From the NCBI GenBank assembly GCA_018902545.1, contig JAHIQM010000008.1, positions 62,001 through 126,000 of the forward strand: a DNA stretch of 64,000 nt, read 5' to 3'. Shown piece by piece: positions 21,473 through 24,514 of the stretch. Within the stretch, counting starts at the first letter, position 1. Each line of letters begins with the position of its first letter. Below the pieces are notes generated by a model. It searched no databases and was not told the origin of the DNA. It worked only from the letters and a program-made list of their open reading frames with translations. A program made the translations under genes and the position numbers. Source of the stretch: Pseudomonadota bacterium. Lineage in GTDB: Bacteria; Desulfobacterota; Desulfovibrionia; Desulfovibrionales; Desulfomicrobiaceae.

Positions 21473-22597
21473 ATGTCGATCGCACCCATTATCTGGATGA
21501 ATGCTGGAGAAACCTCCGGTGACCTGCACGGCCAGCTCCTGGCCCGCGCCCTGCGCGAAGAGCGCCCTGACGCCAGGATACTGGGCATGGCCGGTCCGGC
21601 GATGCGCGAGGAAGGAGTGGAGGCCAGGCTTGAAACCGAAGCGCTGTCGGTCATGGGCTTCACGGAGGTGCTGGCCCATCTGCCCAAAATCTTGGGGCTG
21701 CTGCGCACGTTGAAGGAGGAGCTGACCAAAACCCGTCCGGACGTGGTGGTGGTCATCGACGCCCCGGATTTTCATTTCCGCGTGGCCCGCATCGCCGGGA
21801 GCCTAGGCATCCCCGTAGTCTACTACATCAGCCCCAAACTCTGGGCCTGGCGCGAGGGCCGGGTAAAATTTTTGCGCCGCCACGTCAGCCGCCTCATCTC
21901 CATCCTGCCCTTCGAGGTCGAGTTCTACGCCCGCCACGGCATGAACATCGACTATGTCGGCCACCCCCTGCTCGATTCCATCAGAACCCAGGAAATCCTG
22001 GAAACCAAACCCCGCGCGAACCGCATCGGCATCCTTCCCGGCAGCCGCAAGCGGGAGATCACGTCCCTTCTGCCCGTATTTTCCCGCACCGCCGCCCTGC
22101 TCTCCGCACGCTATCCGGAGCTGGAGTTCGTGCTGCCCGTGGCCCCAGGCATGGACCGGGACCTCATCACCAAGTGCTGGGCCTGCGAGACTCCCGTCAC
22201 TCTGGCCGACAGTTCGTCGCGCTACGAGCTCATGCGCTCCTGCCGAGCCATCATGGCGGCCTCGGGCACGGCCACTCTGGAGACGGCCCTGCTCGGAACG
22301 CCCACTGCGGTCGCGTACAAATTTTCGCAGCTGACCTATCTGCTGGGACGATTGCTCGTGAAGGTGCCCTTCATTTCCCTGCCGAACCTGATCCTGGACA
22401 AATCCGTGTTTCCGGAATTCCTCCAGCACGATGCCAACCCCTCGGCTCTGGCTGCGGCCATGGCGCAATGGATCGAGGACACTCCGGCCCGTGCCCGCGT
22501 CCTGGAGCAACTGGACATCCTGCCCGGCCTGCTCGGCAACGGCGGGGCCGCGAGCCGGGCGGCGAAAATCGTGCTGGAGACCATGCGCAAGCCCTAA
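21473..22597 (+). CDS. lpxB: Lipid-A-disaccharide synthase LpxB
   Basis: Glycosyltransferase (GT19) that joins UDP-diacylglucosamine and lipid X in lipid A synthesis at the inner membrane, 374 residues. Motifs: WMNAGETSGDLHGQLLARAL near the N-terminus, VVVIDAPDFHFRVARIAGSL, VVYYISPKLWAWREGR, ILPGSRKREI and MAASGTATLETALLGTPTAV. The start at 21473 (MSIAPIIWMNAGETSGD) fits the family; a 38-codon upstream extension is not expected. Confirms LPS production. It stands alone here rather than beside lpxA/lpxD, with the cimA leader 47 nt downstream. Confidence 0.96.
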   Translation: MSIAPIIWMNAGETSGDLHGQLLARALREERPDARILGMAGPAMREEGVEARLETEALSVMGFTEVLAHLPKILGLLRTLKEELTKTRPDVVVVIDAPDFHFRVARIAGSLGIPVVYYISPKLWAWREGRVKFLRRHVSRLISILPFEVEFYARHGMNIDYVGHPLLDSIRTQEILETKPRANRIGILPGSRKREITSLLPVFSRTAALLSARYPELEFVLPVAPGMDRDLITKCWACETPVTLADSSSRYELMRSCRAIMAASGTATLETALLGTPTAVAYKFSQLTYLLGRLLVKVPFISLPNLILDKSVFPEFLQHDANPSALAAAMAQWIEDTPARARVLEQLDILPGLLGNGGAASRAAKIVLETMRKP

Positions 22598-22644
22598 AAC
22601 CCGGCCAGTTCCATACGCCCGGAGCCGAACACCAAAGATCATGC

Positions 22645-22673
22645 TTGACAATCGATTCTCCATTGTTCATCAG
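22645..22673 (+). promoter_or_regulatory. Candidate sigma-70 promoter for the cimA leader
   Basis: Perfect -35 TTGACA at 22645-22650 and, 17 nt later, a weak -10 CATCAG at 22668-22673. The start point would fall near 22680, giving a short leader before the leader-peptide ATG at 22692. Confidence 0.4.
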
Positions 22674-22691
22674 CAACAGGAGAAACATACC

Positions 22692-22763
22692 ATGAAAAAC
22701 ATACTCGCCCCCATTTCCATTATTATCATTTCCGTGATTACAAGATCACGGCCGGGGGTGTGA
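22692..22763 (+). CDS. Isoleucine-rich leader peptide of cimA
   Basis: A 23-codon reading frame with an AGGAG site 10 nt upstream. It begins MKNILAPISIIIISVI and has six Ile codons between residues 8 and 16, four of them consecutive (10-13), plus Val codons. It ends in TGA at 22761-22763. It precedes a terminator and then the gene for the first step of Ile synthesis from pyruvate, so its role is to report Ile-tRNA (and perhaps Val-tRNA) charging by ribosome stalling. Not a structural protein. Confidence 0.85.
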   Translation: MKNILAPISIIIISVITRSRPGV

Positions 22764-22830
22764 GGCGTCCGCGCAAGCGGGTATTCACGTAAACAAAAAG
22801 CCCCCGGCCGCAAGGTTCGGGGGCTTTTTC
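22732..22830 (+). promoter_or_regulatory. Transcription attenuator of cimA
   Basis: Four interacting segments are visible. Segment 1, CCGTGAT (22732-22738), pairs perfectly with ATCACGG (22745-22751), the start of segment 2. Segment 2 (CGGCCGGGGG, 22749-22758) is the exact complement of segment 3 (CCCCCGGCCG, 22801-22810). Segment 3 also forms the terminator stem AAAAAGCCCCCG/CGGGGGCTTTTT (22795-22806 with 22818-22829). A ribosome stalled on the Ile codons would cover segment 1 and free segment 2 to block the terminator; one that reaches the stop codon would cover segment 2 and allow termination. Confidence 0.87.
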
Positions 22831-22894: not shown

Positions 22895-24514
22895 ATGAAC
22901 ACCATTCAGATCTACGACACCACGCTGCGCGACGGCACCCAGTCCGAGGAATTGAACCTCTCCACGGAGGACAAGCTGCGCATCGCCACCAAGCTTGACC
23001 AGCTTGGAGTGGCTTACATCGAGGGAGGATGGCCTGGCTCCAACCCCAAGGACAAGCGCTTTTTCGCGGAGATGAAGCAGTACCATCTCGGCACCGCCAA
23101 GCTGGCGGCCTTCGGCTCCACCCACGCCGCCAAGGGCAACGCCGAAAGCGATGCCAACCTGCTGGCCCTCATCGAATCGGAAGCGCCGGTGCTGACCATT
23201 TTCGGCAAGACCTGGGACATCCACGTCACCGACGCGCTGAAAATCACCCTGGAGCGCAACCTCGAACTCATCCGTGACTCCCTGGCCTTCCTGCGTCCCC
23301 ATGCCGGGGAGCTTTTCTACGATGCCGAACATTTCTTCGACGGCTACAAGAAAAACGCCGACTACGCCATTTCCTGCCTGAGAACAGCCATGGACGCTGG
23401 CGCCGACCTCCTGGTGCTCTGCGACACCAACGGCGGCACCCTGCCCGAGGAAATCGCCGCCATCATGGACGCTGTTCGCACGCGTCTGCCCGAAGCGAGC
23501 CTGGGCATCCACGTCCATAACGACTGCGAACTGGCCGTGGCCAATTCCCTGACGGCCGTGCGGCACGGGGCCATTCAGGTCCAGGGAACCATGAACGGCT
23601 ATGGCGAGCGCTGCGGCAACGCCAACCTCTGCTCCATCATCGGCAACCTGGAACTCAAAATGGGCTATTCCTGCCTGCCGCAGGGACACCTGGAACGCCT
23701 GACCGACACCTCGGCCTTTGTAGCCGAAGTGGCCAACCTGCGCTGTTTCAACCGCCAGCCCTACACAGGCCAATCCGCCTTCACGCACAAGGGCGGGGTG
23801 CACGTCGCCGCAGTGCGCCGCAACCCGCGCACCTACGAACATATCGAACCCGAGCTGGTCGGCAACAAGCAGCGCATCGTGCTCTCGGACCTGGCCGGGC
23901 AGTCCAACATTCTTTTCAAGGCCAAGCAGTACGGCTTCGAGCTGGACAAGGGCGACCCCTTTGTCCTGGAACTTCTGACCGAGCTCAAGAACCGGGAAGA
24001 CCGTGGCTACGAATACTCGGCGGCCGAAGCCTCTTACGAACTGCTGGTCAACCGCGTGCTGGGCCGGGCGCGCAACTACTTCCGGCTGATGAGCTTTCGC
24101 ATCCTTGATTCGGTCTTTACCGAAGGCGTCGAGCCCTTTACCGAGGCCACGGTCATGCTGCGCGTGGGTGGCATGGTCGAACACACGGCGGCCACGGGCA
24201 GGGGGCCGGTCAACGCCATGGACTGCGCGCTGCGCAAAGGCCTGGAACGCTTCTACCCCAACTTAAGCGAAATGCACCTGATGGACTTCAAGGTGCGCGT
24301 GCTGACCGGATCGGTGCGTGAGGAAGGACATGGCGGGACAGCCGCAGTGGTAAGGGTGCTCATCGAATCAGGAGACCAGAAAAGCCGCTGGACCACGGTG
24401 GGCGTCTCCTACAACATCATCGAGGCCAGCCGCCAGGCTCTGGAAGACTCCATCAACTACAAGCTGTTCAAAGACGACCAGAAAAAACTGACCCAGGCCA
24501 TCCGCGAGATCTGA
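22895..24514 (+). CDS. cimA: (R)-citramalate synthase
   Basis: Condenses pyruvate and acetyl-CoA to citramalate, the first step of the threonine-independent isoleucine pathway; 539 residues. The N-terminal TIM barrel has the HMGL/IPMS signature (YDTTLRDGTQSEE, about 7-19), the metal-binding HVHNDCELAVANSL, and GTMNGYGERCGNANL. The length, and sequence such as YIEGGWPGSNPKDKRFF, fit the CimA branch (TIGR00977 type) rather than LeuA. The C-terminal LeuA-like dimer/regulatory domain spans about 370-520. An AGGAG site precedes the ATG. Upstream is an Ile-responsive attenuator, which agrees with the assigned pathway. Confidence 0.93.
   Translation: MNTIQIYDTTLRDGTQSEELNLSTEDKLRIATKLDQLGVAYIEGGWPGSNPKDKRFFAEMKQYHLGTAKLAAFGSTHAAKGNAESDANLLALIESEAPVLTIFGKTWDIHVTDALKITLERNLELIRDSLAFLRPHAGELFYDAEHFFDGYKKNADYAISCLRTAMDAGADLLVLCDTNGGTLPEEIAAIMDAVRTRLPEASLGIHVHNDCELAVANSLTAVRHGAIQVQGTMNGYGERCGNANLCSIIGNLELKMGYSCLPQGHLERLTDTSAFVAEVANLRCFNRQPYTGQSAFTHKGGVHVAAVRRNPRTYEHIEPELVGNKQRIVLSDLAGQSNILFKAKQYGFELDKGDPFVLELLTELKNREDRGYEYSAAEASYELLVNRVLGRARNYFRLMSFRILDSVFTEGVEPFTEATVMLRVGGMVEHTAATGRGPVNAMDCALRKGLERFYPNLSEMHLMDFKVRVLTGSVREEGHGGTAAVVRVLIESGDQKSRWTTVGVSYNIIEASRQALEDSINYKLFKDDQKKLTQAIREI

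Follow-up and report, generated by a model that had tools for sequence, protein, structure and literature searches.

A candidate isoleucine-sensing attenuator upstream of the citramalate synthase gene cimA in one bacterial family

Citramalate synthase, the product of cimA, is the first enzyme of an isoleucine pathway that does not use threonine. In a 64,000-nucleotide stretch of DNA (the window) from a bacterium of sulfate-reducer type, we read the region upstream of cimA, with a probability of roughly nine in ten, as a ribosome-mediated attenuator that responds to charged isoleucyl-tRNA and controls transcription of this gene. At the level of sequence, the element is of the ribosome-mediated attenuator type, combining a putative leader ORF, Ile codons, a terminator, an antiterminator and a protector. 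The type of switch is textbook; its target gene is unusual. Rereading of the sequence bore out every coordinate that an earlier note on this DNA had given for the leader, the 1:2 hairpin, the 10-bp antiterminator and the terminator, and added an outer helix, a ribosome-binding site near 22680 and a conserved TTGACA. The features are as follows, with the basis of each assignment in parentheses.

22644..22649, + strand, TTGACA, probable -35 element (sequence, conservation)
22679..22684, + strand, Shine–Dalgarno-like AGGAG, about ten bases 5′ of the leader ORF (sequence)
22692..22763, + strand, leader ORF, 23 codons plus stop, with seven Ile codons including four consecutive (sequence)
22707..22712, + strand, 5′ arm of the outer protector helix, pairing with 22754-22759 and burying segment 2 (fold)
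22719..22730, + strand, Ile control codons ATT ATT ATC ATT, expected ribosome stall site (sequence)
22732..22751, + strand, 1:2 protector/pause hairpin, CCGTGAT/ATCACGG (sequence, fold)
22749..22758, + strand, segment 2, 5′ arm of the antiterminator, just 5′ of the leader stop codon (sequence, pairing)
22801..22810, + strand, segment 3, 3′ arm of the antiterminator, overlapping the 5′ arm of the terminator (sequence, pairing)
22795..22829, + strand, intrinsic terminator hairpin and T run (segments 3:4), -24.7 kcal/mol
22895..24514, + strand, cimA, encoding the 539-aa citramalate synthase (TIGR00977), proposed target of the switch, with its own Shine–Dalgarno AGGAG before the ATG

Translation of 22692-22763 yields the leader peptide MKNILAPISIIIISVITRSRPGV, followed by the stop codon. 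Its Ile codons fall at positions 4, 8, 10-13 and 16, and the 23-codon leader described previously, with four Ile codons in a row and six within nine positions, is found as stated, the nine being codons 8-16. The ORF, with its start codon and ribosome-binding site, lies between the probable promoter and the terminator and would be translated into a control peptide. An in-frame start further upstream, at 22641, was ruled out because it overlaps the -35 element. No other short ORF that precedes a terminator-like site in the 64-kb window has six or more identical residues among nine. The TTGACA belongs to a 25-nt stretch (22644-22668, TTGACAATCGATTCTCCATTGTTCA) with a single copy in the genome, invariant in most genomes of the genus; its counterpart in the sister genus is conserved as TTGACAATCGATT. 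No good -10 match was found downstream of TTGACA, and the -10 box is weak. Conservation extending beyond the -35 box, with no obvious -10 element, might reflect an additional operator.

The arms of the 1:2 hairpin (22732-22738/22745-22751) form 7 bp, all exact, and the outer helix that extends it (22707-22712/22754-22759) is also present in most close relatives. The antiterminator pairing comprises 10 exact base pairs, or 11 with a terminal G-U; among 1000 dinucleotide-shuffled versions of the leader, 2 equalled its duplex value of -27.5. The strong intrinsic terminator (AAAAAGCCCCCG...CGGGGGCTTTTT) ends 65 nt before cimA. The predicted folding energy of the whole 150-nt region is -57.6 kcal/mol versus -39.4 ± 3.8 for shuffles (z = -4.8).

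Ribosome stalling, termination efficiency and the response to isoleucine are inferred here from the established trp/ilv mechanism, which has been summarized for trpL (PMC7298713). When isoleucine is scarce, a ribosome would stall at the Ile run 22719-22730 or at codon 16 and would mask the 5′ side of the 1:2 hairpin. With segment 2 thereby released for pairing with segment 3, the terminator could not form, and cimA would be transcribed. When isoleucine is plentiful, the ribosome would reach the stop codon at 22761 and cover segment 2, the 3:4 hairpin would form, and transcription would end at about 22829. If the leader were not translated, the extended 1:2 protector would bury segment 2, giving termination by default. 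The enteric ilv/trp logic proposed in the earlier note finds its protector, antiterminator and terminator anatomy present, and the response itself is expected by analogy. Because the leader also has Val codons, and those of relatives also Leu codons, some cross-response is possible.

The cimA product scores 730 bits against the TIGR00977 equivalog (cut-off 450) and falls below the cut-off of all 2-isopropylmalate synthase models, in agreement with the previous identification of the controlled gene. The next gene downstream lies on the opposite strand, so cimA is apparently monocistronic and seems to be the only gene under the switch. The proposal that this enzyme supplies isoleucine also gained support. 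In the host genome, the best match to the threonine dehydratase model reached at most 56 bits against a cut-off of 379, with no full-length enzyme; the same model found matches in 14/14 control genomes. Three members of the order lacking cimA (G030, G034 and G038) have ilvA-like matches of 315-324 bits. With no full-length threonine dehydratase in the host, citramalate is probably its route to isoleucine, a reading that these searches support and do not prove.

An Ile leader, antiterminator and terminator precede cimA in 15/15 cimA-bearing genomes of the genus and in 3/3 of the sister genus. G021, the third sister-genus case, did not contribute to the covariance model that recovered it, directly upstream of a cimA fragment (E = 1.9e-12). 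The consensus-structure model R1 (MAFFT) had a poor predicted structure of 15 pairs and worked mostly by sequence. Leader peptides diverge strongly (MKNILAPISIIIISVITRSRPGV, MNAIPAIIILIMDRDTASGS, MHTTLCPILSIIGMIRIASGRFGAACA, MNIITLAIISIISEIHKSRPGA, MNTAASTISIIIMTPALRLGA), and Ile clusters persist. Relative to the leader stop codon, segment 2 ends between -1 and +2 nt in the genus and at -10 nt in the sister genus, positions at which a terminating ribosome would be expected to mask it. Segments 2 and 3 covary (GGCCGGGGG with CCCCCGGCC, GGTCGGGGG with CCCCCGACC, and GGTTCGGGG with CCCCGGACC), the replacements among relatives running from C-G to U-A and U-G. Segments from the same genome pair better than swapped ones, with 0/20,000 permutations as good in a test that ignores relatedness. 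Conservation among relatives had been set beforehand as a refuting test of the attenuator, and both Ile codons and pairing were found in 18/18 genomes, the pairing being weak in a few: it is poor in G003 (6 bp, matched by 50/1000 shuffles) and marginal in G002, G011 and G005 (matched by 20-38/1000 shuffles). In more distant genomes the 1:2 hairpin is weak or shifted in position; the protector is clear in the window and its close relatives and not clear in G004, G008, G011 and G005. What the sequences show directly is the anatomy, its conservation and the complementarity of the antiterminator.

Outside these two genera the element was not encountered. Two genomes of the same family, G017 and G019, have cimA without an Ile leader and terminator, and beyond the family, across the order and phylum, no Ile leader with a terminator was found at approximately 165 loci with cimA. 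Sequence encoding the ACT domain of LysC lies directly upstream of cimA at 52/80 and 60/75 loci scanned in two sets, counts that come from a motif search and are lower bounds; the second set comprised 80 extra loci, less 5 that the script could not orient. In G017, a monofunctional aspartate kinase gene (lysC) sits just before cimA (G017:C16:80168-83177). No monofunctional aspartate kinase scored over the cut-off in the genome of the window, in two other genomes of the genus or in the one sister-genus genome tested. Because these approximately 165 loci are without the element and lysC stands immediately before cimA at most of them, the simplest reading of these gene orders is that the attenuator was gained as cimA parted from lysC. 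The attenuator arose in one bacterial family and is confined to it, so it says nothing on cimA in general. Elsewhere, Ile-rich matches in front of cimA proved to be pieces of the ACT domain of lysC or short ORFs arising by chance, and the chance ORFs at L228 and L071 were ruled out because no terminator follows them. Weak covariance-model matches in other families were ordinary terminators, except for one unrelated Phe/Tyr leader.

At six loci (L013, L014, L015, L016, L017 and L157, from all three sister-genus genomes and from G003, G005 and G011), only 35-39 nt separate TTGACA from the leader ATG, and most of these leaders have no Shine–Dalgarno sequence, which suggests leaderless translation. 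It is conceivable, at somewhat less than even odds, that Shine–Dalgarno-led and leaderless forms of the Ile attenuator both occur in the family, gained once cimA had separated from lysC. In Sinorhizobium meliloti trpL, the leader ORF likewise has its start at the extreme 5′ end of the transcript (PMC7298713), as we infer for several of these relatives. The S. meliloti leader, however, pairs Trp codons with trpE(G), whereas here Ile codons precede cimA and the leader in the window has a Shine–Dalgarno sequence.

Three other explanations of the region were weighed. The hairpin could be a plain intrinsic terminator of the upstream gene lpxB, which ends at 22597, with the Ile-rich ORF a coincidence, and a terminator between co-directional genes would be ordinary. 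This terminator, however, stands approximately 200 nt beyond lpxB, past the conserved TTGACA and the leader ORF. The genes upstream vary between species, whereas leader, terminator and cimA remain together, and antiterminator complementarity is far above that of shuffles in most genomes. We regard an lpxB terminator as very improbable. Equally little weight falls on a T-box or metabolite riboswitch that would read isoleucine or tRNA-Ile without leader translation. T-boxes frequently regulate genes of branched-chain amino acid metabolism in other phyla, but over this region every Rfam family stays below its gathering score, and the T-box is absent even among the weak matches. The room between promoter and terminator is approximately 150 nt, about half of which is taken up by the leader ORF.

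The product of the leader ORF might instead be a small (membrane) protein with a function of its own, or the leader transcript or peptide might act in trans in the manner of peTrpL. A hydrophobic, Ile-rich peptide would suit such a role, and an attenuator leader peptide has roles in trans in S. meliloti (PMC7298713). Yet with such strong divergence of the peptide, only its Ile richness and the RNA pairing are kept, which makes this explanation improbable, if slightly less so than the other two; an extra role of this kind would be compatible with attenuation. Ribosome-mediated attenuation of cimA remains the preferred reading.

The element resembles the enteric attenuators of ilvGMEDA, ilvBN (ivbL), leu, thr, his and trp in its short ORF with tandem end-product codons, in its protector/antiterminator/terminator logic and in the placement of segment 2 beside the leader stop codon. 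Unlike them, it has a leader dominated by Ile codons, and the gene it precedes is cimA, of the citramalate route, instead of an operon for threonine deaminase or acetolactate synthase. Rfam amino-acid leaders matched below their gathering cut-offs in every case (RF00514 His, 23.3 bits against 49; RF01859 Phe, 22.3 against 55; RF00506 Thr, 18.4 against 55). The 2004 survey by Vitreschak is reportedly the key account of proteobacterial attenuators. A limited search of the open PMC literature subset found no description of a cimA attenuator. Outside the gamma-proteobacteria, candidate leader-peptide attenuators of ilvB have been reported in Actinobacteria (PMC1262725), and a uORF is reported for Corynebacterium ilvBNC (PMC10272879). 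They share with the present element a leader peptide and terminator before a branched-chain amino acid gene. They differ in gene and phylum, and the actinobacterial cases partly lack attenuator components or have an unproven mechanism.

Other leaders were noticed in the course of the analysis. Elsewhere in the host genome, outside the window, a Val-rich leader (MNRITANASLSLVVAVVVVRVVMDAQTL; L116:3594-3800, G000:C21, - strand) with a Shine–Dalgarno sequence and terminator precedes the second acetolactate synthase large subunit gene. It is kept in 10 genomes of the genus and resembles enteric ivbL. Given this conserved leader, the attenuation mechanism appears to be in general use in the host, and the Val leader offers a parallel for comparison with the Ile leader of cimA. 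Among the selected operons scanned, leuA and the first acetolactate synthase gene of the host genome had no leader upstream. In another genome, a Phe/Tyr leader (MNKAFFFSFTYYYYPDALPRLGVMPCA; L160:1501-1644, G141:C9:93591-93734) is followed by a terminator and a sodium:solute symporter-like gene, and looks like an attenuator on a transporter.

If the attenuator operates as proposed, leader-peptide attenuation, known mainly from enteric operons, would act in a distant phylum on the enzyme that opens the citramalate route. The Ile leader would provide independent regulatory evidence that citramalate synthase makes isoleucine there. The family may also provide a compact and clear-cut example of a regulatory switch acquired as a gene parted from its former operon partner, in this instance lysC.
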